Shown here: positions 9,991 to 64,000 of the stretch, piece after piece
Position numbering within the stretch: position 1 is the stretch's first letter
How the letters are laid out: the number at the start of each line of letters is the position of its first letter
NCBI GenBank assembly: GCA_030063045.1
Contig: JAQSEB010000044.1
Coordinates: 1-64,000 of the forward strand
Direction of reading: 5' to 3'
Source of the DNA: Pratylenchus scribneri
Taxonomy: Eukaryota; Nematoda; Chromadorea; Rhabditida; Pratylenchidae
DNA length: 64,000 bases
Notes under the pieces: model-generated
Seen by the model: the letters and a program-made list of their open reading frames with translations, nothing else
Told to the model about the DNA's origin: nothing
Databases searched by the model: none
Program-made: the position numbers and the translations under genes

Positions 9991-10523
9991 TTTATTAAAA
10001 AATTCTCTGAAGTATAAATTTGATAAAGGAATTTTGGTATTTTTTTTAATGTTGTCAATAAAATTCTCTGTTCTCTCTATCCATACTTTATACTTTTTTC
10101 GTGGAAAGAAAATAACAAGAAGAACTACATACAAATACAAAGAAGTGAAAAAGCTTTTTTGTGCATCCAATTTGATGCAAAAGACTTTTCAAATAATTCT
10201 TTTTAGGGTTAAGGTTAGGACCAGCAGCAGCAGTTTTGCCAGCATAAACCTTAGTGAATGAAAAATATGACAAAACCAAAAAAAAGATATGGGGCAATTT
10301 CGATGAAAAAATTTGGCATTTTTATGGCAACAATTTTTAACTAAAATATTGAAATAATCGTTTATTTTACAAATCATACTTATTTGATATTCGTGTTCGT
10401 GTATTAGATTTCGCATTATTCTAATAAAGCTTATTTTGGGGATGAGAAACCATCAAAAAATTTTAATAATTGAGAACTCGGAATTCAATTTGCCATAAAC
10501 CATAGACCAATTCTTTAGAGAAA
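9991..10523. other. PDPR upstream region, no gene seen
   Basis: AT-rich DNA upstream of the PDPR start codon at 9990. Possible 5' UTR and promoter for that gene. No convincing exon or repeat was found before the minisatellite. Confidence 0.4.
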
Positions 10524-10537
10524 AAAGTAAAAAATTA

Positions 10538-11142
10538 AAAAAACAAATGTTTGGCGAACATTTTCCGGAAAGAAAAAACAAATGTTTGGCGAACATTTAC
10601 CGGAAAGAAAAAAACAAATGTTTGGCGAACATTTTCCGGAAAGAAAAAACAAATGTTTGGCGAACATTTTCCGGAAAGAAAAAACAAATGTTTGGCGAAC
10701 ATTTTCCGGAAAGAAAAAACAAATGTCTGGCGAACATTTTCCGGAAAGAAAAAACAAATGTTTGGCGAACATTTTCCAGAAAGAAAAACTGGCGAACATT
10801 TTCCGGAAAGAAAAACAAAGTTTGGCGAACATTTACCGGAAAGAAAAAAAACAAATGTTTCGCGAACATTTGCCGGAAAGAAAAACTGGCGAACATTTTC
10901 CGGAAAGAAAAACAAAGTTTGGCGAACATTTTCCGGAAAGAAAAAACAAATGTTTGGCGAACATTTTCCGGAAAGAAAAAACAAATGTTTGGCGAACATT
11001 TTCCGGAAAGAAAAAACAAATGTTTGGCGAACATTTTCCGGAAAGAAAAAACAAAGTTTGGCGAACATTTTCCGGAAAGAAAAAACAAATGTTTGGCGAA
11101 CATTTTCCGGAAAGAAAAAACAAATGTTTGGCGAACATTTTC
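10538..11142. repeat. Minisatellite, 35-bp unit, about 17 copies
   Basis: The tandem unit is CAAATGTTTGGCGAACATTT followed by TCCGGAAAGAAAAAA. Cytosines opening successive units fall at 10544, 10579, 10615 and 10650, a spacing of 35-36 bp. Shortened units of about 23-33 bp occur near 10782-10930. The unit contains the palindrome-like words GTTTGGCGAAC and TTCCGGAA. Because 35 is not a multiple of 3, open frames run through it in all six frames. These are not genes. Confidence 0.95.
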
Positions 11143-11901
11143 AATTGAATCGGGTACGGGCATCCAGCCAGCAAAGATGTCAGCTGAATTCATTGATTTT
11201 TTTCAAATTAGCCAATAGAGAAAAATAAAAATGGAGTATCCCTGAACAGATTAATTCATCCTCAAAAACATTGAAGAAACCGCTTCTCTACCTCTCTCTC
11301 TCTCTCTTCTACCTTCGGTACCCTCATTTTATCGGCATTTTGGCCCAATTTGATCTCATCATCGCCACTCGCCGGCCTATTACTTTCTTCACAATCGAAT
11401 CCAGCAATAAAAATCGTTCGCGCCATCTTTAACTTTTATTTTTTCCTTCTCTTATCCATTGGCCAAATTCTCCTTCCTCCTCATCAGCCAATCGCTTCTC
11501 CTTCATATTTCTTCTGTTCTTCATTAGTTTGGACCATTTTTCTCGGCATTTCTCTTGGCCAATCATCCAAAGCAAATTCCCCTCCAATCAGCACCTTTCT
11601 CTCCTCACTAACTCAATCCACTTCATTTTGGCACTCGCTTACCCAATTTTAATCTAATTTACCCCCTCCATTCCCTAAACTCTCACCAATCGAAACAAAT
11701 CCATTAAAGTTGAGGTATGTGGCGCGCGCTTTTGAGAATATTCCATAGAGATTAAGGAAGGGGATAATAATAATAATATCCAAAATCCATCGACATTTAT
11801 ATTTCCAAATTTTCCATTAAAAATACATAAATAAAGGTAAATCTTCCATCCTTCATTCCAATTTGAATCAACTCTTCCTCATACATTAATCAACAAAAAT
11901 T
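11143..11901. other. Intergenic region with pyrimidine-rich stretch
   Basis: Holds a CT repeat (about 11287-11308) and a long CT/CATT-rich tract up to about 11700. No supported exon was seen. It probably includes the promoter and 5' UTR of the secreted-protein gene starting at 11902. Confidence 0.4.
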
Positions 11902-14751: not shown

Positions 14752-14757
14752 CACACA
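14752..14757. repeat. Left target-site duplication CACACA
   Basis: Six bases directly before the terminal inverted repeat. The identical six bases follow the right terminus at 40377-40382. Polintons characteristically duplicate 6 bp on integration. Confidence 0.92.
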
Positions 14758-15118
14758 AGTAGTTATCAGGGCCTCAGGGGGACATTCTGCACTAAGAAAA
14801 AACCGGTTTTAAGCGGCTACCCAAGCGCTTCATTCAAACCCAACCGGCCATCTGCTCCGACTGGCTATTAGGTAAACGCTTACTTTAAAAGGGAGGGAGT
14901 CTAGAGAAAAGGAAAATAGTATGTTTAAATGAGGAGGGACGGGGTTAGACATTAGACTGACCACCAAGCCGACAGGCAAATCCTGTGGTTAGATTTCTCG
15001 GGGAAAATATGGATTGAAAAAAAAATAATTTCCCCTTCAAATCTTTAAGGTGTTGGCTGGCCTCCAATTGTTGACGACGATGACCTCACCGACCGAACGA
15101 GGAAGAAAGGAAGGAAGA
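14758..15118. repeat. Left terminal inverted repeat of the Polinton
   Basis: Reverse-complement match to about 40019-40376 with a handful of substitutions (for example AAACGCTTAC against AAACGGGTAC) and small length differences near the inner end. It begins AGTAGT, in line with the AG...CT ends usual for Polintons. Terminal repeats serve as the protein-primed replication origin and integrase substrate in this group. Confidence 0.95.
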
Positions 15119-21237: not shown

Positions 21238-22548
21238 TTAAACGGTAGTATCACTAGTAATTGTTCTATTCTTGTCCAACATGAATAAAGAGTCGGCCTC
21301 ACCCATAACTATTAGCATATATCCTCCGGGATCCACGGCGGTTCCAAAGCGAATATGAATGGCTGTTGTCCCATTTTTGATCAGATCGAAAAGTCCTCCC
21401 TGATCTTCTCCACTATTGGTCAAATTGAAGACGTAAATACAATGGGTTTTTCCATATTGGGCATAGGTAATTCCATTTCCTTCGGATGTATTGCTAAATC
21501 CAATGGCCTCATTCATGTCATGGAAAGGTCGCATATAGCGATTTTGAGTATAGACCAGATCATAGGGAGCTTGAGGAAATTGACGTCCATTGGCTACAAT
21601 CGAGATTTCTCGGACATCGAATGGTTGAAAGTTGAAGGGACTCTTTCCCAAATGACCAACGTAATCGGCATTGGCGACAAGACCGCAAACGATTCGACGA
21701 GGGACTTGATCTTGGAATATATTGGCTGAGAATTCGTAACGGCCCGGACTAATAAACATGGACTTCATCATGGATTTACGTACTGCATATCTGGCTGGTT
21801 TCATTTCCAATTTTCGAGCAATATCGAGGCTGAGACCATCCATTAGGGACAGTTTCTTTACATATAATTTACAGGATTGGAGTTCCAAATGATATTTTGT
21901 ATGGAGATTTGATGAAGTGAGTAAAAACTTGGAGTCATTTGGTAAAATCTCAATGTCAATCTCGATATGATTGAGGAGGAAAAGAGGCTGGCAAAAGATG
22001 TCAGCATCAAGTTTGGCAATGAATTGAGCAGTCCTACTCCCAGCAAACAAGGCCTTCCTCGCATTATATCCTGTACCGGCCTCTAATGAATCGTCTTGAA
22101 TTCCATAATAACCGGCTTCGTTTAAATGAGATGTTTTAGCTGTTGGGGAATAGGAGAGTTCATGGGTAAAGTAGGATTTGTAGGCCATCAAAGAGTTTGA
22201 ATTGAATATTTCTCGGCCATTTACGCTCACCCTCATATTATGCATAAATGTGTTTCCAATCATTTGAATGGGAGCAACTTCCTCATTTTCGGCCAAATCG
22301 ACCAAAACTCCGAGATGAGTCTCTTTTCGGATACGGAATTCGGTGAGCAAATAACATCGTGTTGGGTCAATATAATTATCGGATGAGTGAATTTTAAAAT
22401 GGTAAGGGGTATCGGTGAGGGGATTACTGGTCAAAATTTCAAAGGTTTTTGCGGAGGATACTGTAACATTGGTAGGAGGAATTTGAAAGAAATCCAGTGC
22501 ATTTGTGATTGAGTTTACACTATCCGAATCAATTTTGTAGAAAGCCAT
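21238..22548 (-). CDS. MCP: Major capsid protein, double jelly-roll
   Basis: Single unspliced ORF of 436 residues starting at an ATG. The order of beta-rich segments, the IDPTRCYLLTEFRI and SVNGREIFNSNSLMAYKSY motifs, and the C-terminal RPFHDMNEAIGFSN...ITYAQYGKTHCIYVFNL fit the Polinton major capsid family. That family is often annotated in nematode genomes as F54H12.2-like. The protein would form the hexons of an icosahedral virion. The start codon overlaps the stop of the upstream pVI-like gene (TAATG at 22546-22550), so both are probably made from one mRNA. The ORF is intact. Confidence 0.93.
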   Translation of the reverse strand: MAFYKIDSDSVNSITNALDFFQIPPTNVTVSSAKTFEILTSNPLTDTPYHFKIHSSDNYIDPTRCYLLTEFRIRKETHLGVLVDLAENEEVAPIQMIGNTFMHNMRVSVNGREIFNSNSLMAYKSYFTHELSYSPTAKTSHLNEAGYYGIQDDSLEAGTGYNARKALFAGSRTAQFIAKLDADIFCQPLFLLNHIEIDIEILPNDSKFLLTSSNLHTKYHLELQSCKLYVKKLSLMDGLSLDIARKLEMKPARYAVRKSMMKSMFISPGRYEFSANIFQDQVPRRIVCGLVANADYVGHLGKSPFNFQPFDVREISIVANGRQFPQAPYDLVYTQNRYMRPFHDMNEAIGFSNTSEGNGITYAQYGKTHCIYVFNLTNSGEDQGGLFDLIKNGTTAIHIRFGTAVDPGGYMLIVMGEADSLFMLDKNRTITSDTTV

Positions 22549-23006
22549 TAGTAAAGACCAAATACGTCGGAGCGAAGCCTTTTCTTTGAATGAACAATGG
22601 GTTTGGTAATTTCGGAACTAATGATAGTCTGATGTGATAACGGAGTACGTCGTCGCCCTTTTATACGCCGGTGATTATGTCCGCCGCCAAATTGTTTAAC
22701 TCCGGTAAAATTTTTCAAACCTTTTTTACTTTCTTCGACCAATGTCTGACCCAAAGGTTGTCCCTCTTTGATCTGTTCAATTATTCGTTGTCCTGTATTT
22801 AAGGCCTCATCTTTGAAAGCTGAACCAGCATGGCGAATAAGAGGCATGAAAAACCTCAATATCCCTCGAAATACATCTCCGATGCCTGTTCCTCTCTGAT
22901 AAACTGGTCCGCCTCTATAGACCGGGAACGCCTCATCCAAGCCTCTCCCGGTTTGAATATAGTCATCGTAGGAGAAGGCATTAGTATCGAATATTTCATG
23001 AACCAT
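22548..23006 (-). CDS. pVI/pX-like minor virion protein
   Basis: 152 residues. It has an N-terminal acidic/aromatic region, then GGPVYQRGTGIGDVFRGIL, an amphipathic helix with FFMPLIRHAG, and EALNTGQRIIEQI. The C-terminal half is rich in His, Arg and Lys (RRIKGRRRTPL, SKKRLRSD). Such Gly-rich, amphipathic and basic proteins lie directly before the capsid gene in many Polintons and adintoviruses, and are compared with adenovirus pVI or pX (membrane disruption or core). A TATA box is seen at 23052-23059. The stop overlaps the capsid start by one base. Confidence 0.75.
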   Translation of the reverse strand: MVHEIFDTNAFSYDDYIQTGRGLDEAFPVYRGGPVYQRGTGIGDVFRGILRFFMPLIRHAGSAFKDEALNTGQRIIEQIKEGQPLGQTLVEESKKGLKNFTGVKQFGGGHNHRRIKGRRRTPLSHQTIISSEITKPIVHSKKRLRSDVFGLY

Positions 23007-24766: not shown

Positions 24767-25420
24767 TTAAATGGTTTTTGGATGGAAAATTATAGGGTGT
24801 TCATCATCCTTAAATAGATTTGTCCGGAGGCGAAGCAGAGGATCACTAGCTGCATGCATATCAATCATCAAATAGCCATAGGGTTGATTTGTTGCCTGTC
24901 TATAGGCATCCAAAAAATAATCCAATTGACGAGGAAATAGTTGAGTTCCAATGTTCCTTATAGCCAAAGCCGAATTTGGAGATCTCATGAGGACTAGATA
25001 TTGGGCATTCTGCCTGGCAACCTTTATTTTCTTCTCAAACAAATTTTGAGTAACAAAGACAATGGCAAAGTTTTGGTGATGGGATTTTGCTGTAAACAGA
25101 GAGGACAAATACGATTCCGAGATGGAAAGGAGCAAGTCATCCAAAATGAGTAAACAAGGCTTCTGTTGACGTTTAATGACCTCTTCATCGGGAACTCCAG
25201 AATGAACGGTTACTCCGGCTTTTTGGAGGATGGGGACAGTTGTACTCATTTCTCCAAAGCAATATAGGATAGAATGAGGAGGTGGATTAATAAGGGACTG
25301 AGCTTCGGCTATAAATTTTAGGAGAAAGGTACTTTTCCCACTGGAACTTGGTCCAGATAGGATCATACCAAAGGGAAGTTTCAACTTTAAATCGTTCTCG
25401 GAAAAGGAGGACAAATCCAT
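24767..25420 (-). CDS. ATPase: DNA-packaging ATPase, FtsK/HerA (A32-like)
   Basis: 217 residues, intact. Walker A is GPSSSGKST at residues 23-31 and Walker B is LLILDD at 90-95. A conserved FVTQN (sensor-like) follows around residue 124. Length and motif spacing match the genome-packaging ATPase of Polintons and related large DNA viruses. It likely pumps the genome into the capsid. It heads the tightly packed minus-strand row (ATPase, 114-aa, 151-aa, duplicated basic protein). A TATA box at 25465-25474 lies upstream. Confidence 0.92.
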   Translation of the reverse strand: MDLSSFSENDLKLKLPFGMILSGPSSSGKSTFLLKFIAEAQSLINPPPHSILYCFGEMSTTVPILQKAGVTVHSGVPDEEVIKRQQKPCLLILDDLLLSISESYLSSLFTAKSHHQNFAIVFVTQNLFEKKIKVARQNAQYLVLMRSPNSALAIRNIGTQLFPRQLDYFLDAYRQATNQPYGYLMIDMHAASDPLLRLRTNLFKDDEHPIIFHPKTI

Positions 25421-25628: not shown

Positions 25629-26276
25629 CTAAGGTTTAAAGTTTTTTGGAAAACGAATGGAATTTAAAGGGGTAATGTGACCAAATTTCTTCCTCATTGC
25701 TATTTTCCTCATTTTCTCCTTCTTCTTCTTCTTCTTCTTCTTCTCCTTCCTCATCCGTTTGATCTTGGTAAGACGCCATGCCAAAGAGCCGAAAGAGAAG
25801 GGATGTTGACGTTTAATGTTATCCTGAAGGTTAAATTTTGGAAACGGAGTTTGAGGACGAATAACCGATTCCATTGGCACGGGTGTCGGTGGACGAATTC
25901 TTGGGTGTTTTTGAGGTAGAGAGGCGATAGCCGACTCAGACCGGAGGAATCGATGGTAGAGAGGCGATAGCCGACTCAAACCAGAGGAATCGGTGGTAGA
26001 GAGGCGTAGCCGACTCAAACCAGAGGAATCGGCGGTGAGATTCCTCCTGGTGAGATTCCTCCTGGTGAGATTCCTATGGTGAGATTCCTCAGGAGATATT
26101 TCCATATTGATTGCCTGATCCTGAATATCTTTTGAATTTCCATTTTTTAATCTATTTTTTACATTGGATTCCGTAATTTCCATTTCTTGTACTGAAGAAT
26201 CCATTTTGATATTGGAAAACTCTCGAATCATATCCAAAAAGTCCATCGTTTGCTGTAATTCAAGTAAACTGACCAT
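25629..26276 (-). CDS. Polinton protein with minisatellite-coded middle and poly-Lys tail
   Basis: 215 residues from the ATG at 26276. The N-terminal ~60 residues are helical and acidic. The middle is encoded by two tandem arrays: four ~15-bp units (NLTRRNLTRRNLT) and three 40/40/39-bp units (25915-26033). Because 40 is not a multiple of 3, each unit is read in a different frame. The C-terminal part has PRIRPPTPVP, and a run of lysines (RKEKKKKKKKKEK). The basic tail suggests nucleic-acid binding. It is not recognised as a known family. A TATA-like CATAAATAT is at 26296-26304. Confidence 0.65.
   Translation of the reverse strand: MVSLLELQQTMDFLDMIREFSNIKMDSSVQEMEITESNVKNRLKNGNSKDIQDQAINMEISPEESHHRNLTRRNLTRRNLTADSSGLSRLRLSTTDSSGLSRLSPLYHRFLRSESAIASLPQKHPRIRPPTPVPMESVIRPQTPFPKFNLQDNIKRQHPFSFGSLAWRLTKIKRMRKEKKKKKKKKEKMRKIAMRKKFGHITPLNSIRFPKNFKP
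25915..26094. repeat. Coding tandem repeats (40 bp x3 and ~15 bp x4)
   Basis: Units starting GGTAGAGAGGCGATAGCCGA begin at about 25915, 25955 and 25995. They are followed by four copies of GGTGAGATTCCTCCT-type units. The word GAGGCGATAGCCGAC also appears in reverse in the signal peptide of the neighbouring membrane-protein gene (about 26606-26630). Confidence 0.85.
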
Positions 26277-26558: not shown

Positions 26559-27212
26559 ATGTTCTTCATTATCTTCTTCCCAAAAAAATCTCACCACCTA
26601 TTTTTCTGGTTTGCGTCGGCTATCGCCTCGCTACTCATTCCCATAATCTCCTCATTTCCCACCCAAGAACCGACTACAAAGTACACCTATAAATATAATC
26701 TACCGGAATATTCCCAGTATAAGGAGATCTTAAAATCCGTAAGACCATCTTCGACAATTCCACCACAACCATCAACTTCTGAATTAATTACGACTATATC
26801 TCCTTCGGAATTTATTTCCACTTCCTCCTCAAAAATTAGTTACTCAAATCCAAACTTTGTTCCCGATCTTCCTTTGTGCAAGGAGACCCCTGAAAGTGAC
26901 AATTTCTACGGACATGCATATTGCCTCATTGCCTTTCTCTTCTATCTCATTGCCATTATCAGCGCCATTTTGTTAACTTGTAGGGCTTTTGGATGTCTCA
27001 AGAAATTTGAACAACAACCACGACGACAACAAGAACCCTACGAACGAGAATTGGAGTCATTAACAGAACGTTATCCCTCGATTTTCCACAAGAACATGTC
27101 ACGAGAGGAGATGTATAAAAAGATGAGCACTCCAAATATTGATGTACCAGATGGACTCGTTACAAGTAACCCATATACTCCGATCAAATCCTCTGACAAA
27201 TCGTTCATTTAA
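26559..27212 (+). CDS. Type I membrane protein with Ser/Thr/Pro-rich stalk
   Basis: 217 residues. It has an N-terminal signal peptide (FFWFASAIASLLIPIIS), then a ~90-residue Ser/Thr/Pro-rich, probably O-glycosylated stalk. A short Cys-containing segment follows, then a transmembrane helix (LIAFLFYLIAIISAILL) and a ~70-residue charged tail. It is too short and lacks the heptads or fusion loop expected for a viral fusion glycoprotein. It could be a virion or cell-surface protein. The 3' end overlaps the protease gene by 71 nt in another frame. Confidence 0.75.
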   Translation: MFFIIFFPKKSHHLFFWFASAIASLLIPIISSFPTQEPTTKYTYKYNLPEYSQYKEILKSVRPSSTIPPQPSTSELITTISPSEFISTSSSKISYSNPNFVPDLPLCKETPESDNFYGHAYCLIAFLFYLIAIISAILLTCRAFGCLKKFEQQPRRQQEPYERELESLTERYPSIFHKNMSREEMYKKMSTPNIDVPDGLVTSNPYTPIKSSDKSFI

Positions 27213-27567
27213 GGAATGCCTACCAATTGATCATCTTACTCTACCGTCAACCTTTCCTTCCTCATTTGTTGTCAATTTGGATTCATCTGATGGAGAAGGA
27301 ACACATTGGGTTGTTTATTATTTTTTGAGGAAGAACAATGTTTTATATTTTGATAGCTATGGAAAACCTCCCACCCTTAATATTAATGTGAAAAGAAATG
27401 TAAAATGTTATCAATCCCTCTATGCTGACACTTGTCCTCATCATTGTATTTCATTTATTTACCACATTTCCCTAGGATATTCCCTTGATCAATATTGTAA
27501 ATTATTAGACAGTAAATTTAATTCCGATTTATTTGTAAAAAATTTTGTGGAAAAATTAATAAATTAA
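27142..27567 (+). CDS. PRO: Adenain/Ulp1-type cysteine protease
   Basis: 141 residues from the first ATG (27142). Catalytic His is in GTHWVVYYF (H55), the acidic residue in YFDSYG (D71), and Cys in DTCPHHC (C98). A Gln precedes it at 91, as in adenovirus protease. The Gly that usually follows the catalytic Cys is Pro here. Polinton proteases mature virion proteins. The start lies inside the previous gene, so translation may need reinitiation, leaky scanning or a separate mRNA. Confidence 0.88.
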   Translation: MYQMDSLQVTHILRSNPLTNRSFKECLPIDHLTLPSTFPSSFVVNLDSSDGEGTHWVVYYFLRKNNVLYFDSYGKPPTLNINVKRNVKCYQSLYADTCPHHCISFIYHISLGYSLDQYCKLLDSKFNSDLFVKNFVEKLIN

Positions 27568-27629: not shown

Positions 27630-28310
27630 TTAATGGAAATGAGGACATTTGTATGCTATACATTCCTGAGTATGGATATGGGGGCAAAATGAGGATAAAC
27701 ATTTTTCGGAATGAATATGATAACAAGGGAAAGCAAAACAGATTCGGGGTTTTTGGTAATCTTCACTATCATTTGTTTGGGTACTTTCAACGTCTTCAAA
27801 TACAATATCGTTCGCCGCATTGGTTGTCTGAGTAGATTGATCCTCCTCCCATACGATATCATCGAGATCATAATTGTCAATGTCACTCAGCATTGATTCG
27901 AAAATTTCCCCATATTTGCATTGATCGTCCTCTTTTTTCCCCTCCTCCTCAAATTCCAGCAGCTCCATTGGGTAATAATGATTATGGGTGCCAATTTTTT
28001 GAATGATACACGGAATATACGGGTAATGAAGACGGATTCGATGACGAGAATAGAAATGCTGAGAAACTGTTACATTGAATTGAGGGGGCAATTTTCCATA
28101 GGCAAGTACTTCATCGGCTCCATTGTAAGTTATTCCTCCTATCACTATTACCTTCTTCTCGCCTTTACGATCCTTGTATGTAGTTTGTACTATGCGACCA
28201 TTTAAATGTTTTATTAACTTTTCTCGATTTTCAGGGTGATTGATTTTATCGGATAGTTGTTTAATTGAACATTTGAGAAAATGAGCGCATTCTTGGAGGA
28301 CTGTTTTCAT
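27630..28310 (-). CDS. Stand-alone Argonaute-type PAZ domain with CxxxxC(P/Y)HxH repeat tail
   Basis: 226 residues, unspliced, from the ATG at 28310. Residues ~1-120 follow the Argonaute PAZ pattern: N-terminal helix, LIKHLNGRIVQTTY, KVIVIGGIT, then FNVTVSQHFYSRHRIRLHYP and the closing YYPMELLEF. The aromatic YF/HFY and RLHYP segments form the pocket that holds small-RNA 3' ends in the family. No MID or PIWI domain follows. Instead there is an acidic linker (~125-185) and three 13-residue units, CFAFPCYHIHSEK, CLSSFCPHIHTQE and CIAYKCPHFH, which look metal-binding. It lies between the protease (convergent) and the cyclase-like gene (divergent). Inference: a captured host PAZ used to interfere with RNAi. 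Confidence 0.75.
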   Translation of the reverse strand: MKTVLQECAHFLKCSIKQLSDKINHPENREKLIKHLNGRIVQTTYKDRKGEKKVIVIGGITYNGADEVLAYGKLPPQFNVTVSQHFYSRHRIRLHYPYIPCIIQKIGTHNHYYPMELLEFEEEGKKEDDQCKYGEIFESMLSDIDNYDLDDIVWEEDQSTQTTNAANDIVFEDVESTQTNDSEDYQKPRICFAFPCYHIHSEKCLSSFCPHIHTQECIAYKCPHFH

Positions 28311-28428
28311 GTTTTGAAGGATTATGGGTAAATTTGGGAAAATGAAATGAATAGAGGAAGTAGCTGGAAAATGATTATCTTATATATTTATCATAAATTA
28401 AGCTCCACCCCTTTTTTGGGTTGGCATC
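28311..28428. promoter_or_regulatory. Compact divergent promoter between PAZ and cyclase-like genes
   Basis: Only 118 bp separate the two divergent ATGs. A symmetric AT core, TCTTATATATTTATCATAAA at about 28377-28396, gives AAATATATAAGA on the minus strand and TATATATTTA on the plus strand. It could act as a TATA box in both directions, co-regulating both accessory genes. Confidence 0.55.
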
Positions 28429-29160
28429 ATGCCAAGTGAGAATGTCAAGTCTTACCAAGACTCCGCCCCTTTTTGTCCAGATTTGGATTTCCGTCCATTT
28501 TATGAATTCATTCTTTCAAAAATCCAAAAATCGGAAGCCAGAAAATTCTCAAATATATTCTCTCTCCAATTTACCGAAAATATGGCCCAACAAATTCTCA
28601 CACCTCCCACTCTCCTCGAAATGATGGCCTCTGATTATCCGGATCTCCTCTTTCAACGTTTAGCCTATGTTATTGAAAATGTTTTGGATTTTACCTCAAA
28701 ATTTTCCTATGTATTTTATTCTGGTTTTCCTAATCGTACCTTTGCCGAGCATTTTTGTAATTCTTATGGATTTTCCACTCTTGAAATGACCGCAGGTGGA
28801 AAATATTTAGACGGCCTTGATCTCTTCAATAACAATAAAACATACAAAGATGGGCCTCCAATTACTCAAAAACAAGCTTCGGAACTCTGGGACATGGCCT
28901 CAAGAAAATATGCTCAAACGTGTAAATGTCCAGAAGTATATGCATTCATTGAAGGCGCCGAACCTATCAACGAACATGGAGTTCTACGTACATTCTTCCG
29001 AGTGGAACTGCCAGTCCTCCTCAAAGAAAACAAGAATATCGAGACCATCTTCTTTGTGAACAGTGATTTCCGGATCGATGGGGCCTATGAAAAGAAGCTT
29101 AAGCCGTTCTATGACAAGAAGATGAAACCTTTTCGATGGACTAAAGATGGACCCATTTAA
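28429..29160 (+). CDS. ADP-ribosyl cyclase (CD38)-like protein
   Basis: 243 residues, unspliced. Residues ~150-212 resemble the catalytic half of ADP-ribosyl cyclase/CD38 proteins. SELWDMASRKYAQTCKC matches the family FW-x3-S-R-x-F-A-x-x-C pattern, followed by VYAFIEGA (family VhVmLNGS) and RTFFRVELPVLL (family StFgsvEvhnL). Trp154 and Glu193 would correspond to the active-site Trp and Glu. The N-terminal half is weaker. The usual Leu-Trp before the helical segment is LLF here, and the Glu-Asp pair is not obvious. No signal peptide or membrane anchor is seen, unlike CD38. If real, it would act on NAD or cyclic ADP-ribose. The assignment is from pattern recall, so confidence is moderate. Confidence 0.5.
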   Translation: MPSENVKSYQDSAPFCPDLDFRPFYEFILSKIQKSEARKFSNIFSLQFTENMAQQILTPPTLLEMMASDYPDLLFQRLAYVIENVLDFTSKFSYVFYSGFPNRTFAEHFCNSYGFSTLEMTAGGKYLDGLDLFNNNKTYKDGPPITQKQASELWDMASRKYAQTCKCPEVYAFIEGAEPINEHGVLRTFFRVELPVLLKENKNIETIFFVNSDFRIDGAYEKKLKPFYDKKMKPFRWTKDGPI

Positions 29161-30165: not shown

Positions 30166-31572
30166 TTAAAAATTTATTACTTTTTTGAAAATTAATACAA
30201 TCATAACATTGCCATATTGAAAAGGGATTGGTCTTCCGTCTAATGTACTTATTTTGATTTCAATCTCGCTCACTTCTTTCGGTAAAACGGGAACATAGAG
30301 TGGTGAGTCATAAATCTTTTCCACATGGTCTCCAGGACTGGCACCGTTTAAACTGACAACCCGAAGTAATGAATTTAAGAGGTTTCCAATAATGACATTT
30401 CCTGTTAGGCCTTTGGCGTAGACGGCAAACGATGTGAAGCCTCCTCGTAAATCCGATTTGTATTTGGCCGTTTCATTACTCTGTATTGAGGAGGGATTTT
30501 CAAATCCGAGGACATATCCCAGTTGCTGTGACAGACTCAAATGTGTGATATTCTCATCAGTATAGACAATTTTGAATCGTTCATTAATCGTATCATATTG
30601 AAATTCCACGGAATCGATCATTGCTTTTATTTCTTCTACTTGTATTGCCTTTGGTGGTTCTGTTTCTTTATTCTTTGATGCACGTGGAGGTTCAAGAGGA
30701 GGAATGATTAGATTAGCCAATGTCATTATAGGTGCTATTTTTGGAGCTTGTCCATATAAGAATTCGAGACCATCTTTCCTGTATTTTTTAGCTGGCGGAG
30801 GTTGAGAAGGAGTAGCCGACTGGGAAGGAGGAGGCAACTGAGGAATCGTAGATTCCGAAGGAGGTTGAGTAGGAGTAGCCGACTCTTGAGGAGGTAACTG
30901 AGGAATCGTAGATTCCGAAGGAGGTTGAGTAGGAGTAGGTTGAGTAGGTAACTGAGGAATCGTAGATTCCGAAGGAGGTTGAGATTTGGCTCGCTGTGAA
31001 GGTATCGGAGGTATTATTAGATCCCTCATGACGGCAATTGGTGATTTTTGTGGAGCTGTTCCCATCTGTATGTCGAGAAGATCTCTTGGTCCTTTTTGAG
31101 TAGTTGATTTTTGAGATGGGTTAATCGGAGGTTCTTTTGATTTATCATCGATACGAGGAGGAGAAGGAAGAGATTGAGTCAAAGGAGGAGATGCGATTAC
31201 TGGTTTCTCTGCCAAAGGAGGAGATTTGGGATTATCGATAGCTCTTCTCGTTCTGGGTTTGCTAATTTCATCTTTATATTCTATCAATCTTTGATTAAGT
31301 GAATTCCTCAGATCCTCAATTCTCGTATAGGAACCTTCGGGTACAGGAATTTTTATCATTCCATCCCCTTTGTAGTGAATTCCGATATATTCCTCGTCCA
31401 GTGTTCCAAGTGTTGAAGGCCATGAATATGGGAAGAAAATACTATGTAGACCGCATACCCATTCTCCAGGAAATTTGAGAGTTCGACCCAGATGAACTCG
31501 ATAATGGTTTGGTTTATTATCTGGGTAATCCAATGAATTACTAGGCAAATGGACAATGAGAGTATTTGACAT
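30166..31572 (-). CDS. Penton-like minor capsid protein with large proline-rich insertion
   Basis: 468 residues, intact. The N-terminal VHLGRTLKFPGEWVCGLHSI, FPYSWPST and EGSYTRIEDLRN motifs fit the single jelly-roll minor capsid protein of Polintons (penton base). So do the C-terminal LSQQLGYVLGF, DLRGGFTSFAVYAKGL and GNVMIVLIFKK motifs. Residues ~105-320 are an insertion of Pro/Ser/Gln-rich repeats (PPSESTIPQLP three times, with QSATP-type linkers) between the two halves. The function is capsid vertex formation. The insertion may be a surface tether or fibre-like extension (inference). A TATA box (31607-31615) and the shared motif lie upstream. Confidence 0.88.
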   Translation of the reverse strand: MSNTLIVHLPSNSLDYPDNKPNHYRVHLGRTLKFPGEWVCGLHSIFFPYSWPSTLGTLDEEYIGIHYKGDGMIKIPVPEGSYTRIEDLRNSLNQRLIEYKDEISKPRTRRAIDNPKSPPLAEKPVIASPPLTQSLPSPPRIDDKSKEPPINPSQKSTTQKGPRDLLDIQMGTAPQKSPIAVMRDLIIPPIPSQRAKSQPPSESTIPQLPTQPTPTQPPSESTIPQLPPQESATPTQPPSESTIPQLPPPSQSATPSQPPPAKKYRKDGLEFLYGQAPKIAPIMTLANLIIPPLEPPRASKNKETEPPKAIQVEEIKAMIDSVEFQYDTINERFKIVYTDENITHLSLSQQLGYVLGFENPSSIQSNETAKYKSDLRGGFTSFAVYAKGLTGNVIIGNLLNSLLRVVSLNGASPGDHVEKIYDSPLYVPVLPKEVSEIEIKISTLDGRPIPFQYGNVMIVLIFKKVINF

Positions 31573-31770: not shown

Positions 31771-32864
31771 TTAATCTACTTTATTCAAATCAATTAAATC
31801 ATTTTCATGAATCCATTGCGGATCGGAATAACCAATAAATTTGATCAAGTGTTCCTTCATTCCATCTTTTCTTTTTCTTGTCCTCAATATTTTCTCTACT
31901 CGATATTCTGTTCGCTCATCTTTCCTCACTTTACTCAGCTCGGGCCCGTAGAAATGACCTTTGAACTCTTCGCCTTTTTCATCTTTAACTTTATAGGTAT
32001 GAGGTATTGATTTGCTCTTGACTTGATCAACTTCCAGTATTTCATCGTTCCAATTGGTCAAGTATCCCTTCTCGAATTTTCCTTTATCCAAACTCATTCG
32101 TACAAAATCGCCTTCTTTGAATTTGGGTTTTGATTTATTATGGCCATAAAATTCTTTTGCATATTGTTTATTCCAAACATCCTCAGCATTATCTGGAGTA
32201 ACATCCACTGGTCTCATTCCGATGGCACGGCTCTTTGAATGGTTTATAGCATTGACAATCTTTGGAAGAACTTTGATCCATTCTTTGGTTTGATATTGAG
32301 CAAAATATCGATAGAGTCTCTGCTTGAGATTTCGAATAGCCCTTTCGGCAAGAGATGCCTTTTGGAAAGGGGAACTAGCCTCTAATTTTATAATATCTTC
32401 ATTCTTTAAGAATTCTTTCAATTGTCGATTTTTAAACTCTGTTCCCAGATCTGTGTATATTCTCCCGGGTATTTGAGGCATATCCTCAATCAATAAACGC
32501 ATTGCCTCAACCACGTCATCGGCCCTCTTTGTCTTTATAGGTTTGGCGAATAACATTTTGGAGAGGACATCCATACCGACGAGTATATATCGGTTACCAT
32601 CATTATGATCTGCCAAAGATTGCATATCGGCCAAATCCGCCTGTAAATCGGTCATATAACCAAGAGGAACAGTTTTGACTCTTTTGAATCGAGTTCGACG
32701 GGGTTTAGTCAGAGTATATGTTCTATGACCTTGGAGGAAATGTTCAACATCTTGGCGACTTATTTTTGGATCGACTTTTTGGGCTTTTTTAGAAGAGACT
32801 CTACTCCGGTAAAACCGGCTGGATTTGAGGGATTATTATAAATTTGGGCCAATTTTTCTTCCAT
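31771..32864 (-). CDS. INT: Retroviral-type integrase with chromodomain, split by a -1 frame change
   Basis: The ATG at 32864 opens a frame whose 25-codon N-terminus fits the start of Polinton integrases. The 0-frame stops at 32760-32762. The long downstream frame contains QADLADM (first catalytic Asp), IYTDLGTEF (second) and ASLAERAIRNLK (Glu). It ends with a chromodomain (YRVEKILRTRKRK...IKFIGYSDPQWIHENDL). The two frames overlap around an A-AAA-AAG heptamer at 32784-32790, and a -1 shift there connects them with conserved residues on both sides. Either programmed frameshifting or a single-base lesion in an A6 run is possible. A 32-nt GT-AG intron could also join the frames but would delete conserved residues. 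Confidence 0.85.
32784..32790 (-). promoter_or_regulatory. Candidate -1 ribosomal frameshift site A-AAA-AAG
   Basis: The heptamer is in the correct frame (CTA AAA AAG) for simultaneous slippage, and the shift leads into the integrase frame. About 20-35 nt downstream no strong stem-loop is obvious by eye. The 0-frame ends nine codons later. Confidence 0.5.
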
Positions 32865-33224: not shown

Positions 33225-36200
33225 TTAATAATTTTGTCCAAAATGATAAACGTTGAAATCGCCTTTCTTAATGATTCCTTTACCGACAAATGGCCTCCAG
33301 ATCTTGTCCATTTTCACCGAAAACACACCTCCTTTGCGAATTGAGGGTCTTAGACAATGAGGATAGAATACGGAGACGTGATCGATGATTCCGGTGTTGA
33401 CATATTTGAGGACAGCGTCTTTGAAGCGATGATATTGGAGGCCTTGCCTATCCGTGACGTCGTAGCTCAAAGTGATGCCGCGGATTTTGAGGACGTATTC
33501 GAACGGAGCAAATGGATTGTCTTTCTTCCTCATTTTGATACCATACTGCTTTGCTCCGGCGAAACAAACTTCGAGGATGTCGTGGTCGGGAAGTTCGTCC
33601 GTAAAGTCGCCTATATGAGGACCAAGCTGGAGAGGGCACTCATTTTTTGGATGACTGAAAAAATGAGGAATATTATTTTTGAGTAAAGGAAAAAAAATGA
33701 GGATATTCTTTCAATTATATTTAATTATTTATAATTTTATACTAGGATATATATTTACCTGAATATTAACGAGTCGGTATCCGTATATAAAAGTTTACAG
33801 CCCGGAGATCGTGAAACTTTTTGCATGGCACGGAGGAGGAGAAGGCGGGCACATGCTGTTGTCCAGAGGCTGATAATTACATTTGAGGCATCATTTTCCT
33901 TGACTGCTTCTTTTCTGGTTACATAACATATCATAATGACTCCATCGACCAATTCATCTATACTCATCACATCCACATCATTCGCATTCAACATATCTCC
34001 TAGGTCGCATGGGTCGTTTGTAATCATTGTTTGGCCAAGTCCAGCGTTCCTCATTGAAAACCGTCCCCATAAGTTGTTTACAATGAGTTTGGCCAATAGT
34101 CGTTTTCCGGCATCCTTGTTCATTTTCACTCGATCGATCGTTATTCCAAACCTTTCCTTGCACTCTTTAATAAATTTCTCCTCTTCTTCGGTGTTGCCCT
34201 CAATTTTCTTGTCGAAGCCGCTGGCGTGTATTTTCATCGACAAGAATTCACTCATAAAGCCACGGAAAAGTTCTCGATCGGTGCCCTCATATTCGTAGAC
34301 TCTGACCAGCTCCGTAACTCGATACCCCTCATTCAGTGCAGCATCGAGTTCCACAGATGTACAGGAGCTGACCCATCCTCTGGTGTTGTCGTCATGGTGG
34401 CATTGGTAGTGGTTGAAAACGCCTCCTACAGGATGTAATTTGGCACACGCTGCGCAAAGGGGGAATAGTAGGCGTTCATCCCCTTTGGTTCCCGTCTTCA
34501 TTGGTAGTATTGGGATATCGATATGGCGTGGCGGGATGACGAAGCATTTGATGAGGGCTGTTTTGTAGGGGTTGTCGGCTGCTTCTGTCCAATTGACCTC
34601 CTCATTTATGATATGGACTTTGGGATGGCCGACTGGATATCCCATCATCCATTCATCGAGCATATAGTTGACGTACGGGTACAATGAGGTGAAGTCGTAA
34701 TAGCTGATTTTCTCTCCTTCTTTGGCCTGATAAAATAATGTGGATGGTCCCGTACGTCCTCCATAGAAACATTCTCGCGGCTCAAGTGGTGATCGATCTC
34801 GGTATTGTAAAAATTTTGCCTTCATATCCGGGTTGTTTCGCAGCATTTCATCAATTTCACACGTCCATATCACATCCACTTGTCGAACACATTTTTTGAG
34901 GTAAGCCAGTTTGATTGCATCTCGTTTTCGTAATTCTCCTGCTGGTTTATGTTTTGGTTCGAGTATTTGATTGTCATCGGGATAGCAAGTGGGACAACCA
35001 TGGAAATAACACCCGTTCACCTCAATAATTCTATCCTCTTCCTCAATGTATCCGTCGACGGGGTATTTCCCAAATACTCGCTCGCCTTCTTCAGAGTATG
35101 CCGTTTGGATGTCCACCTGATGTTCTTCGGCATACCAACGGAGATAACGATAGGCTGTTTTTGATTGGTTGTCTTTTTTGTCGTATCCTTGTTCGGGGAC
35201 TAAGGCCAGATGGTGAGTTTTGAGGTGATTGGCCTTGAAGAGATTAATACATGCTCGGGCAATTGTGGCGGACATAATGAGAGGATCGAGGCCATGATGA
35301 GGTTCTTTGAAATGGCCGGCCCGGTCGGCGTCCCCTTCCTCATCGACTTGAAGGCGTTTTGAAATGTCCATAAATTCATGTCTGAAGGCTACGAGGGCAG
35401 CAAGGAGGATGTCGGTGTCGTTGGTGCAATATGAAGCTAGCTCCTCGTTTAGATTGAAATCGGCATTACCTTCAGTTTCAAACCTAAAATATAAAAATCG
35501 TTATAAACTTCCTCATTTTTTTTCCATACTCAATTTTCTCCTCATTTTTCCCTTACTCATTTTCCTACATACTCATTTTTCTTATATCCTCTTTTTCATT
35601 TTCCCTTTTACTTACCATTCCAGAAAGCGCTCATATTTTTCCGCTTTCCAGCTGGTTGCCAAATAATCATCTGGAGTTGGTCGTAATATTTGGCCATAAT
35701 TTTCGGGGCGATTTAATTTATGTGGAAAATACGGCTTGTTGGGAATATTGAGACCAAAGGCTGAGGGTAGTTGTTCAAGTGCCATGGGGAATAGATTAAA
35801 TGAGTCCTTGAAGTAGAGGGAGGTGCCATTGTCTTTGTGGATATTCATTGTAATTAGTTTATTGCCGCGGCGAACGAGTGATGGATTGTAGCCTTTTTTG
35901 TAGAGTTCCACCACAGCATAATGAATATCGAATCTCCCTCCATAGTGGCTAAAGATGTATGAATCCGCCTGTTGTGGTAGTTCATCAAGGAGCCAGGTGA
36001 TAAATTCTTTCATCGGTTCCTGGCATACAACTTGATGATCGACAGGTGTGGTCGTGAATGGCTGATGGGAGAAGGTTGCTGTTCGATGAGGACCACATGT
36101 ATTGCAGGGCGTACTCATTTTTGATAGTTTCCATTCCTTAAAAATACAAATTATTATTTCCTCATTTTTAAAGTTTAAACTACCTCATTTTTGATACATT

Positions 36201-40018: not shown

Positions 40019-40376
40019 TCCTTCCTTCCTTGTTCTTCCACCTTCGGTCGTTGAGGTCATCGTCGTCAACAATTGGAGGCCAGCCAACACCTTAAAGATT
40101 TGAAGGGGAAATTATTTTCAATCCATATTTCCCCCGAGAAATCTAACCACAGGATTTGCCTGTCGGCTTGGTGGTCAGTCTCATGTCTAACCCGTCCCTC
40201 CTCATTTAAACATACTATTTTCCTTTTCTCTAGACTCCCTCCCTTTTAAAGTACCCGTTTACCTAATAGCCGGTCGGAGCAGATGGCCGGTTGGGTTTGA
40301 ATGAAGCGCTTGGGTAGCCGCTTAAAACCGGTTTTTTCTTAGTGCAGAATGTCCCCCTGAGGCCCTGATAACTACT
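40019..40376. repeat. Right terminal inverted repeat of the Polinton
   Basis: Mirror of 14758-15118, ending ...GGCCCTGATAACTACT, followed at once by CACACA (40377-40382). The few mismatches with the left copy indicate limited divergence. Confidence 0.95.
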
Positions 40377-40382
40377 CACACA
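40377..40382. repeat. Right target-site duplication CACACA
   Basis: Identical to 14752-14757, as expected for a 6-bp Polinton duplication. Confidence 0.92.
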
Positions 40383-58254: not shown

Positions 58255-60211
58255 ACAATAATCAACAACAATCATGCTAAATTTAATATGCAAAAAGTCT
58301 ATTTTTAATTCTGATTTTATTCTTATTCTGACTTTTAATTCTGATTTTATTCTTATTCTGATTTTTAATTCTGATTTCGTTCTGAATTCTGCTAATTTTT
58401 TCTTTATTTTTAAATTCTGATTTTGTTAATTTCCTGTTTTTTTTTGGGGGGGGGGGGGGAGGGGGAGAAGATTATCAGGGGCAAGACCTATAAAATATAA
58501 TAGGAAGAATAAGAAATCCTTATCTTCATCATCTTCATCGTTATCCTCATCTTCATCATCATCCTTATCTTCATTATACTCTCATTCTCATTTTCATCCT
58601 CTCATTCTCATCATCATTCTCATCTTCATCATCATCCTTATCTTCATCATCGTTATCCTAATCTTCCTCATCCTCAACTTCATCATTATTCTCATCTTCT
58701 TCATCATATCATCCTCGTCTCCATTATCCTCTCATTCTCTACTTCATCCTCTAATTCTCATCCTCATCTTCATCATCATCCTATCATCAACTTCATCATC
58801 TTCATCATCGTTATCCTCATCTTCATCATTATTCTCATCTTCTTCATCATGTCATCCTCATCATCATTATCCTCTCATTCTCATCATCATTATCATCTTC
58901 ATCATTTTCCTCATCTTCATCATTATTCTCATCTTCTTCATCATCCTCATTTTCATTATCCTCTCATTCTCATCTTCATCCTCTCATTCTCATCCTCATC
59001 ATCATCTTCATCATCATCCTATTATCAATTTCACCATCTTCCTCATCTTCATAATCATTATCCTCATCTTCATCATCCTCATCAAAATCATTACCTCATC
59101 TTCATCATCATCTCCATCATTATCCTCATCTTCATCATTATTCTCATCTTCTTCATCATCATCCTCATCTTCATTATCCTCTCATTCTCATCTTCATCCT
59201 CATCATCATCCTCAGCATTCTCATCTTCATCATCTTCCTATCATCAATTTCACCATCTTCCTCATCTTCATCTTCATTATCCTCATCGTCATCATCCTCA
59301 TCAACATCATTACCTCATCTTCATCACCATCTTCATCATAATCCTCATCTTCATTATTACCCTCATCTTCTTCATCATCCTCATCTTCATTATCCTCTCA
59401 TTCTCATCTTCATCCTCTAATTCTCATCATCATCTTCATCATCATCCTATCATCAACTTCATCATCTTCATCATCGTTATCCTCATCTTCATCATCCTCA
59501 TCCTCACCATTATACTCATTTTCATTAACATCTTCATCATCTTCATCAACATACTCATCTTCATCATCATCCTCATCTTCATTATCCTCTCATTCTCATC
59601 TTCATCATCATCATCTTCCTCATCATTCTCATCTTAATCATCATCTTCATCACCTTCATCCTAATCATTCCCTTCACCATCTTCCTCATCTTCATCATCA
59701 TCTTCATCCTCATCATCTTCCTCATCATTCCCATCTTCATCATCCTCTTCATCCTCATCACCTTCATCATCATCCTAATCATCCCCTTCACCATCTTCAC
59801 CAACTTATTCATCTTCATCATCATCTTCAACATCATCATTATCCTCATTCATCATCCTATCATTCTAATCTACATCATCATTATCCACATCTTCATCATC
59901 CTATCATTCAAATCTTCCTCATCATTATCCTCATCTTCATCATCCTATCATTCAAATCTTCATCATCATTATTATCCTCATCCTTACCATCTTCTTCCTC
60001 ATCATCTTCTCCATCATCTTCATCATCATCTTCCTATTCATCCTATTATATATTATAAGTCTTGTCGCCTCGCCCCAAAAAAACAGGATGCATCAATATT
60101 CTTTCCTTTTTGCATAAATAAATAAATCATTTAAAAAATTAAGAAAAGTTTATTGATTTGATGCTGTTGTCATGCTTGAATGCTAATTTATTTGTAAAAT
60201 GTTTTATTTAA
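58241..60211. repeat. Direct duplication, copy 1 (3789 bp offset), including TCATC tract
   Basis: The block CGGGCGAACTCCTAAGCTAGG ... ATGTTTTATTTAA recurs from 62030 to the window end at a constant offset of 3789 bp with a handful of differences (T/C at 59806 against 63595, and one G more in the G run). It contains about 1.55 kb (58500-60050) of TCATC/TTCATCATC simple repeat. Long open frames across it are low-complexity artefacts. Confidence 0.95.
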
Positions 60212-60904: not shown

Positions 60905-61480
60905 AAAATTTGAATGTTTTTGTTCATCCAAACATTTGAATGTTTTTGTTTTCCCAAACATTTTAGGTTTTTGTTCATCCAAACTTTTGAATGTTTTTGT
61001 TTTCCCAAACAATTTATGTTTTTGTTCATCCAAACATTTGAATGTTTTTGTTTTCCCGAACAATTTGTGTTTTTTCATCCAAACATTTGAATGTTTTTGT
61101 TTTCCCGAACAATTTGTGTTTTTTCATCCAAACATTTGAATGTTTTTGTTTTCCCAAACATTTTAGGTTTTTGTTCATCCAAACATTTGAATGTTTTTGT
61201 TTTCCCAAACATTTTAGGTTTTTGTTCATCCAAACATTTGAATGTTTTTGTTTTCCCAAACATTTTAGGTTTTTGTTCATCCAAACATTTGAATGTTTTT
61301 GTTTTCCCAAACATTTTAGGTTTTTGTTCATCCAAACATTTGAATGTTTTTGTTTTCCCAAACATTTTAGGTTTTTGTTCATCCAAACATTTGAATGTTT
61401 TTGTTTTCCCCAACAATTTTTATTTTTGTTCATCCAAACATTTGAATGTTTTTGTTTTCCCCAACAATTTGTCTTATCCA
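60905..61480. repeat. Minisatellite, ~49-bp unit (AAACATTTGAATGTTTTTGTT...)
   Basis: About twelve units of CATCCAAACATTTGAATGTTTTTGTTTTCCCAAACATTTTAGGTTTTTGTT. Unit length varies slightly (45-50 bp). Each unit contains the inverted words AAACATTTGAATGTTT. The open frames across it are repeat artefacts. Confidence 0.93.
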
Positions 61481-62029
61481 AAGAATTTATTTTTTGCTAG
61501 TCCAATTTTGTGTTTTAGTTTTCTCAAACTTGTTTCAATTTCATTATACTCAGTCATTTTCTATCCATTGTTTTAATTGCTTAAAGGAGCGACCGGTCGC
61601 CGCTGCGCAGCTCCCGTCCGCTCGAATTGTCATTTGTCTATCATATTGAAAAATATTCATTGATTCAACTTCGGAATTTTCCTATCATTTTATTTTCATA
61701 ATCTCAATCATTCATTTTTACATTACATCAATCTCTCCCATTTTCTCATTTAATTGATTGAGTGAAATATTTTTCAAATTGTTATTCTAAAAATATTTAA
61801 TTTCCTTTATTTCTTTATTATGTATGCCTAACAAACTATTTTTCTTTATTCCTAAACTATATATCATTTATTTTGGATATTTTCGAACAAATTAAAATAA
61901 ACAAAACGCCAACAAATAAAAATTTAATAAATAATTTTTTTGTGACAGACGAACACTCCCAATTAATATATAATAAATAATTTTTTTGTGACAGACGAAC
62001 ACTCCCAATTAATATATAACGGGCGAACT
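61481..62029. other. AT-rich region with a short direct repeat
   Basis: TAATAAATAATTTTTTTGTGACAGACGAACACTCCCAATTAATATATAA is found twice in tandem (61926-61974 and 61975-62019). A GC-rich foldback-like segment, GAGCGACCGGTCGCCGCTGCGCAGC, lies at about 61588-61612. No gene. Confidence 0.5.
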
Positions 62030-64000
62030 CCTAAGCTAGGCACAATAATCAACAACAATCATGCTAAATTTAATATGCAAAAAGTCTATTTTTAATTCTG
62101 ATTTTATTCTTATTCTGACTTTTAATTCTGATTTTATTCTTATTCTGATTTTTAATTCTGATTTCGTTCTGAATTCTGCTAATTTTTTCTTTATTTTTAA
62201 ATTCTGATTTTGTTAATTTCCTGTTTTTTTTGGGGGGGGGGGGGGGGGAGGGGGAGAAGATTATCAGGGGCAAGACCTATAAAATATAATAGGAAGAATA
62301 AGAAATCCTTATCTTCATCATCTTCATCGTTATCCTCATCTTCATCATCATCCTTATCTTCATTATACTCTCATTCTCATTTTCATCCTCTCATTCTCAT
62401 CATCATTCTCATCTTCATCATCATCCTTATCTTCATCATCGTTATCCTAATCTTCCTCATCCTCAACTTCATCATTATTCTCATCTTCTTCATCATATCA
62501 TCCTCGTCTCCATTATCCTCTCATTCTCTACTTCATCCTCTAATTCTCATCCTCATCTTCATCATCATCCTATCATCAACTTCATCATCTTCATCATCGT
62601 TATCCTCATCTTCATCATTATTCTCATCTTCTTCATCATGTCATCCTCATCATCATTATCCTCTCATTCTCATCATCATTATCATCTTCATCATTTTCCT
62701 CATCTTCATCATTATTCTCATCTTCTTCATCATCCTCATTTTCATTATCCTCTCATTCTCATCTTCATCCTCTCATTCTCATCCTCATCATCATCTTCAT
62801 CATCATCCTATTATCAATTTCACCATCTTCCTCATCTTCATAATCATTATCCTCATCTTCATCATCCTCATCAAAATCATTACCTCATCTTCATCATCAT
62901 CTCCATCATTATCCTCATCTTCATCATTATTCTCATCTTCTTCATCATCATCCTCATCTTCATTATCCTCTCATTCTCATCTTCATCCTCATCATCATCC
63001 TCAGCATTCTCATCTTCATCATCTTCCTATCATCAATTTCACCATCTTCCTCATCTTCATCTTCATTATCCTCATCGTCATCATCCTCATCAACATCATT
63101 ACCTCATCTTCATCACCATCTTCATCATAATCCTCATCTTCATTATTACCCTCATCTTCTTCATCATCCTCATCTTCATTATCCTCTCATTCTCATCTTC
63201 ATCCTCTAATTCTCATCATCATCTTCATCATCATCCTATCATCAACTTCATCATCTTCATCATCGTTATCCTCATCTTCATCATCCTCATCCTCACCATT
63301 ATACTCATTTTCATTAACATCTTCATCATCTTCATCAACATACTCATCTTCATCATCATCCTCATCTTCATTATCCTCTCATTCTCATCTTCATCATCAT
63401 CATCTTCCTCATCATTCTCATCTTAATCATCATCTTCATCACCTTCATCCTAATCATTCCCTTCACCATCTTCCTCATCTTCATCATCATCTTCATCCTC
63501 ATCATCTTCCTCATCATTCCCATCTTCATCATCCTCTTCATCCTCATCACCTTCATCATCATCCTAATCATCCCCTTCACCATCTTCACCAACTTACTCA
63601 TCTTCATCATCATCTTCAACATCATCATTATCCTCATTCATCATCCTATCATTCTAATCTACATCATCATTATCCACATCTTCATCATCCTATCATTCAA
63701 ATCTTCCTCATCATTATCCTCATCTTCATCATCCTATCATTCAAATCTTCATCATCATTATTATCCTCATCCTTACCATCTTCTTCCTCATCATCTTCTC
63801 CATCATCTTCATCATCATCTTCCTATTCATCCTATTATATATTATAAGTCTTGTCGCCTCGCCCCAAAAAAACAGGATGCATCAATATTCTTTCCTTTTT
63901 GCATAAATAAATAAATCATTTAAAAAATTAAGAAAAGTTTATTGATTTGATGCTGTTGTCATGCTTGAATGCTAATTTATTTGTAAAATGTTTTATTTAA
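62030..64000. repeat. Direct duplication, copy 2 (truncated by the window end)
   Basis: The same 1.97-kb block as 58241-60211 with near-complete identity, including the same TCATC simple-repeat tract (62290-63840). Confidence 0.95.

Follow-up and report, generated by a model that had tools for sequence, protein, structure and literature searches.

PAZ domains are already known, as are Polintons and suppressors of RNAi. Tombusvirus p19 is a virus-coded RNAi suppressor that binds small RNAs and has a fold unrelated to PAZ; the protein described here is a PAZ of the host type and resembles p19 in its proposed role only. Set against the PAZ of human AGO2, a member of the AGO clade (PDB 8thq), this element-borne PAZ is free-standing, is changed at the F294 column and is followed by a tail of its own. 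Its host element has genes and termini like those of nematode Polinton/Maverick elements. Mavericks are present in M. incognita, and the available part of the published account yielded no mention of a PAZ or Argonaute cargo of these elements (PMC8288018); the text of PMC11118728 contains no mention of Argonaute. Within the accessible portions of the open-licence literature we found no description of a PAZ gene in a Polinton, and a PAZ-only family on mobile elements is, as far as that literature was searched, apparently new.

The window, a stretch of 64,000 nucleotides of Pratylenchus scribneri DNA (contig JAQSEB010000044.1), contains an element at 14758-40376 that we take to be a Polinton/Maverick: it has a PolB gene, a packaging ATPase gene, and terminal inverted repeats of ~350 bp, 96-98% complementary, with the same 6-bp target duplication, CACACA, on both outer sides (Table 1). 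A sequence-only reading of this DNA had placed the PAZ gene in a Polinton, and these replication and packaging genes, terminal repeats and target duplication bear out that placement. The integrase match (rve, E 1.1e-6) has 29.2 bits, yet the cutoff is 32.6, and the chromo match (E 0.0096) is also below cutoff. Three ORFs are presumed by us to encode the major capsid protein, the minor capsid protein and an adenain-like cysteine protease; the first has no match in Pfam or PDB, and the presumed protease has weak PDB matches only and none in Pfam. PolB is spread over two ORFs (33755-36118) with a gap of ~240 bp, which might be an intron or a lesion. A 42-bp sequence near the ORFs at 26 kb (25916-25997, 26593-26634) occurs in two copies of the same orientation and one inverted copy, and Rfam gave 0 RNA matches in the window at gathering thresholds.

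Table 1. Features of the Polinton and of its PAZ-only gene, in window positions.
Feature	Position	Strand	Remark
Left terminal inverted repeat	14758..15107		preceded by target duplication CACACA (14752-14757)
Presumed major capsid protein	21238..22548	-	no Pfam or PDB match; conserved in other copies
Presumed minor capsid ORF	22548..23006	-	no Pfam match; conserved in other copies
Packaging ATPase (Pox_A32)	24767..25420	-	PF04665, 25.1 bits (cutoff 22.8)
Conserved Polinton ORF with hydrophobic stretch	26559..27212	+	in other copies, homologs lie close to PAZ
Presumed adenain-like cysteine protease gene, tail-to-tail with PAZ	27142..27567	+	recurs beside PAZ; no Pfam match
PAZ-only gene, 226 aa	27630..28310	-	open frame; PF02170, 37.1 bits (cutoff 28.8)
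C-terminal Cys/His units, residues 191-226 (3 x CX4CxHxH)	27633..27740	-	
PAZ domain, residues 1-124	27939..28310	-	
118-bp gap between divergent PAZ and CD38-like genes	28311..28428		candidate bidirectional promoter
CD38-like (ADP-ribosyl cyclase/NADase-like) gene, head-to-head with PAZ	28429..29160	+	
Conserved Polinton ORF	30166..31572	-	
rve integrase, weak chromo-like C-terminus	31771..32655	-	PF00665, 29.2 bits, below cutoff 32.6
PolB DNA polymerase, C-terminal ORF	33755..35371	-	PF03175, E 2.5e-21
PolB, N-terminal ORF	35612..36118	-	PF03175, E 3.4e-9
Right terminal inverted repeat	40033..40376		followed by CACACA (40377-40382)

The PAZ-only gene is open on the minus strand from its ATG (28310) to its stop (27630), and residues 27-123 of the 226-aa product match PF02170 (PAZ) with E 3.5e-9 and 37.1 bits, above the curated cutoff of 28.8; at E 1 Pfam gave no second family for this protein. 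Sequence profile and fold agree in giving a PAZ domain, and the absence of such a fold, which the sequence-only reading had named as grounds for giving up its claim, is not what we see. In the fold comparison Argonaute-type PAZs were placed above PIWI-type ones, and the 50 matches listed are chains of the Argonaute family with no Dicer among them, an absence that excludes nothing about the Dicer PAZ. The claim of an intact 226-residue PAZ-type frame thus stands, as does the claim that MID/PIWI is missing: we detected no MID/PIWI region in this protein, and PF02170 is the sole family (Pfam, E 0.01) in 26/26 members of the family alignment, so that this family lacks the combination of PAZ and MID/PIWI in one protein that marks an Argonaute. 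Two divergent outliers miss the PF02170 cutoff (L069 with 15.9 bits, L068 with 25.5). Chance similarity to PAZ is ruled out by the profile, the fold and the many copies. The gene product is best read as a free-standing Argonaute-type PAZ with a fast-changing tail, often acidic and sometimes Cys/His-rich, and we regard it as nearly certain that there is a PAZ-only gene family of Polintons.

The missing MID/PIWI part bears on one account of what such a protein might do, in which the PAZ recruits host small RNAs for self-limitation of the element or for silencing of competing elements. The PAZ evidence serves this scenario as well as it serves an anti-RNAi role, and many copies coexist in the genome. 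However, since no MID/PIWI or catalytic part was found, a PAZ by itself would hardly function as a guide-loaded effector, and we consider recruitment highly improbable.

In the 227-Mb assembly (276 contigs) the window protein has at least 150 matches, and by hand count 113 of the best 150 are without an internal stop and 37 have one. Polinton genes lie near 103 of these best 150 (a Polinton ATPase match at 25 kb or less, or a protease match at 12 kb or less) and not near the other 47, compared with 5.4% of 20,000 random places, which were drawn solely on match-bearing contigs and no farther along each contig than its last match. The co-occurrence with Polinton genes that the sequence-only reading had proposed looking for is therefore found. 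Seen from the ATPase, a PAZ match lies within 25 kb of 113 of the best 150 matches (random places drawn in the same way, 7.1%). The best 99 matches account for 89 of these and the remaining 51 for 24; the PAZ list for this comparison has at least 230 pooled places, host Argonaute exons included. Because 37 of the best 150 ATPase matches (10 among the closest 99) have no PAZ match within 25 kb, the PAZ gene would be dispensable, or is unrecognised, there. Of 20 PAZ loci, each viewed at up to 10 kb, 18 have near the PAZ an ORF homologous to one that serves Polinton replication, packaging or structure; the remaining two have the CD38-like gene only (L016) or nothing but PAZ (L017). Five PAZ loci without ATPase or protease neighbours comprise four with more divergent Polinton genes (L067, L068, L069, L071) and one retroelement (L070). 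The closest recognised neighbour of PAZ varies by family, being protease, PolB or ATPase, so the PAZ gene has been kept through changes of gene order, as would be the case for a selected gene. The PAZ gene family has long been carried by the Polintons of this genome. Some copies are equally spaced, on contig C138 near 42315, 80724 and 119133 (38,409 bp twice) and on C63 near 11712, 31857 and 52001 (20,145 and 20,144 bp), which might represent head-to-tail tandem arrays of the element or an assembly artefact.

Beyond this genome, a word-based protein search with the family profile, which is silent on absence elsewhere, returned 26 proteins at E <= 0.01. The ten with a named organism are all from Meloidogyne (enterolobii, hapla, incognita and graminicola), and several Meloidogyne UniRef entries are already titled 'PAZ domain-containing protein'; by these named relatives alone the window would be taken for root-knot nematode DNA. 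None of 135 BFVD matches was a viral relative at E <= 0.001, PHROGs gave no phage relative at E 1, and a one-pattern scan of IMG/VR gave 11 stretches, none confirmed as a relative; a phage collection, holding bacteriophages only and so expected to yield little, gave no match. PF02170 itself has at least 138 matches in the genome, counted exon by exon, many of which are host Argonaute PAZ exons, and counting by the PAZ model alone is an annotation hazard that mixes element genes with host Argonautes.

The many host Argonaute PAZ exons lend some colour to the idea that the window gene is a mere relic, a piece of a host Argonaute gene trapped inside or beside a Polinton, or a chance likeness. We estimated dN/dS for 27 chosen pairs, within and between families, which are non-independent and several of which are saturated at synonymous sites. 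In the PAZ core the ratio is 0-0.28 in 24 of 25 computable pairs and 0.47 in one, which has 5 differences in all; it is undefined in two close pairs with 2 nonsynonymous and 0 synonymous changes each. One copy broken after 78 aa (L021) was excluded. The PAZ gene is under purifying selection. Since relatives recur beside Polinton genes and this selection acts on them, the window locus is not a host Argonaute relic. The ORFs are self-contained and intact in many copies, Polinton neighbours accompany them in many families, and the tree described below separates element PAZs from host PAZs. We therefore find a relic hardly credible and reject it; that the locus might be a relic of a full host Argonaute gene, which the sequence-only reading had offered as an outcome that would overturn it, is contradicted by the same recurrence and selection.

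The tail behaves differently from the core. Three CX4CxHxH units start at residues 191, 204 and 217 with a spacing of 13, the third being stopped after 10 residues, and three units arose in 0 of 100,000 shuffles of residues 124-226. The Cys/His repeat tail of the sequence-only reading is thus real in the window copy, but it is not a property of the gene family: among the 36 copies compared, window included, only the window copy has the pattern, and the database protein P0001, which is nearly identical to it, shares this tail. Seven of the 36 have one to four CxxC(G/S)xxH units in its place, and three members of 126 aa have just three residues past position 123. The Cys/His tail is copy-specific and should stay out of the definition of the family; it may bind zinc. 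Across these units the predicted model has pLDDT block means of 41-49. Tail dN/dS is 0.12-0.64 (18 of the 27 pairs), and in most pairs computable for both the tail changes faster than the core. The window tail holds 22 D/E against 7 K/R, and an acidic tail is found in many copies.

Whether the element PAZ could hold the 3' end of a small RNA was considered by reading its pocket columns against human AGO2 in 27 element rows and 11 Argonaute rows. H271, Y311 and H316 are among the AGO2 residues that have been mutated as expected contacts of the guide 3' end, according to the accessible part of PMC5389725, and F294A together with L339A has been used to disrupt the pocket, according to that of PMC7265490. 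Three columns are largely kept in the element rows: at Y311 there are 12 Y, 10 H, 3 F, 1 W and 1 N, at R315 R/K in 24, and at H316 H in 25 of the 27, whereas the 10 nematode Argonaute rows have Y there. At H271 there are 19 Y and 8 H, and at R277 K/R in 18. The L339 column is Y/F in all 27, a feature shared by 7 of the 11 Argonaute rows, and the Y279 column is F in 12 and otherwise I, L or V. At the F294 column 23 element rows have A, 3 have S and 1 has V, against F in 11/11 Argonaute rows, and it is this column that speaks most strongly against ordinary 3'-end binding. Since Y, F or H follows this column in 26 of the 27 element rows, it is possible that the pocket aromatic has been shifted by one position.

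The same columns could be taken to mean that the PAZ fold has been kept and nucleic-acid binding lost, the protein being a decoy that docks by protein contact on Argonautes or their loading partners. Substitution of the F294 column in every element row, the aliphatic residues or F at the Y279 column, and the acidic tail in many copies would all fit this. The H316, R315 and Y311 equivalents are, however, largely retained and constraint is stronger on the PAZ core than on the tail, and we think loss of binding unlikely.

A PAZ-only ORF is also found outside Polintons. On contig C68 (404500-413200; L070, L073) an ORF of 215 aa, with PF02170 at 29.3 bits against the cutoff of 28.8, lies downstream of a phlebovirus-like glycoprotein gene (Phlebovirus_G2, PF07245, E 4.3e-38). 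ORFs in the 6 kb upstream match Peptidase_A17 (Pao peptidase, PF05380, E 1.4e-50), an integrase zinc-binding domain (PF17921, 29.4 bits, cutoff 25.5) and DUF5641 (PF18701, 63.6 bits, cutoff 23.1), together with an rve match below cutoff. From these genes we assign the locus to a BEL/Pao retroelement with an envelope gene. It differs from the known BEL/Pao elements with a phlebovirus-like envelope, those of the Cer7 type, in having the extra PAZ-only ORF past the envelope. A second such ORF, open and 77% identical, lies on C179. L074 and L075 are two further loci at which one long open frame encodes a glycoprotein of the same type and, after it, a PAZ-like stretch that misses the cutoff (20.9 and 20.3 bits). 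They are the two viewed among the PAZ-like matches that lie within long open frames of 704-3674 aa; of seven retroelement-like or long-frame PAZ places, those on C68, C40 and C1 were viewed.

In a first tree the C68 row falls within the element group, and the other element rows as a group by themselves are not rejected (p 0.346). A second tree unites the Polinton and retroelement PAZs and sets them apart from host Argonautes with support of 91/95, which falls short of the tool's 95/80 mark, and with long element branches; the phylogeny with nematode Argonaute PAZs suggested by the sequence-only reading separates the two at that support. A clade of the Polinton rows by themselves is not rejected in the second tree (p 0.425), the rows called Polinton in the trees including two database proteins of unknown context (P0026, P0030), one locus without a Polinton ATPase or protease match nearby (L045), and the two loci with PAZ only (L017) or PAZ and the CD38-like gene only (L016). 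Host rows were labelled by us, presumptively, as WAGO- or ALG-like. The element PAZs lie on the WAGO side of the branch (99/83) that separates human AGO2 and the ALG-like row, yet they are a group separate from the nematode WAGO-type Argonautes. Either the PAZ gene moved between element classes or both classes captured similar host domains; either course would fit these trees.

Polinton PolB is thought to prime with a protein, and one might suppose that the element's linear, protein-primed DNA has its free 3' ends bound by the PAZ, which would then be a replication or packaging protein with no part in counter-defence. That the PAZ domain of AGO2 can bind DNA, as stated in the available text of PMC6361761, would favour this proposal. 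A similar PAZ gene is, however, present in a BEL/Pao retroelement, which is copied differently, and among the 99 closest ATPase matches there are 10 that lack a PAZ match at 25 kb or less; we judge a replication role distinctly improbable. A dsDNA element and a retroelement would share little replication or packaging machinery, and both should face RNAi, so that the presence of PAZ in both favours a role directed against the host over one in replication or packaging.

On the sequence evidence we consider an anti-RNAi role of the PAZ proteins somewhat probable. The likeliest source of the PAZ would be an Argonaute of a nematode, perhaps of the worm-specific, WAGO-like kind, and its likeliest job would be blunting host small-RNA silencing. 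In one route a small, abundant PAZ might cap siRNA 3' ends before Argonaute loading; in the other it might act as a decoy that occupies Argonaute partners. The findings suggest that these elements evade silencing with a piece of the host's own defence. If PAZ proteins do act on small RNAs, the elements would have turned part of the host's Argonaute into a counter-defence against RNAi, which might help explain the high Polinton copy number in this genome.

The PAZ gene also has a frequent partner. Divergent arrangement with PAZ is found in 44 of 56 genome matches of the CD38-like gene. The window CD38-like protein itself has no PF02267 match; among six relatives one is over the cutoff, four are below it (E under 0.001) and one has no match. 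The family profile has as best PDB match 5bnf ('Uncharacterized protein', E 6.4e-6), with a named cyclase at E 0.0075 and CD38 at E 0.051, and the predicted model is of low confidence (mean pLDDT 54). This recurrent pairing constitutes a testable module. In Meloidogyne, the accessible text of PMC5934874 reports PRG-1/2 to be absent and WAGOs to be many, so element silencing in that genus should rely on siRNAs. Taking these points together, we tentatively entertain, as possible rather than probable, a scenario in which one Argonaute-derived PAZ family, moving between Polintons and enveloped BEL/Pao elements, decoys the siRNA/WAGO pathway in a lineage reported to be without piRNA Argonautes, and in which many Polintons pair it with an NAD-consuming CD38-like enzyme from one divergent promoter, as a two-gene counter-defence module.

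Pairs of protease and CD38-like matches with equal scores occur at six places (C57, C101, C127, C42:2875589, C172:186754 and C232:48900) where the nearest 1.5 kb contain no PAZ match; three or more of these places are near contig starts (C57, C101 and C127, ~4 kb in), and they are possibly subterminal Polinton fragments. Elsewhere in the window, 10515-11228 and 61026-61576 are repetitive with several frames open, and 58849-59637 and 62638-63426 share an identical 262-aa translation, S/H-rich and of low complexity, in strongly C-rich, G-poor DNA, as a duplicated repeat.
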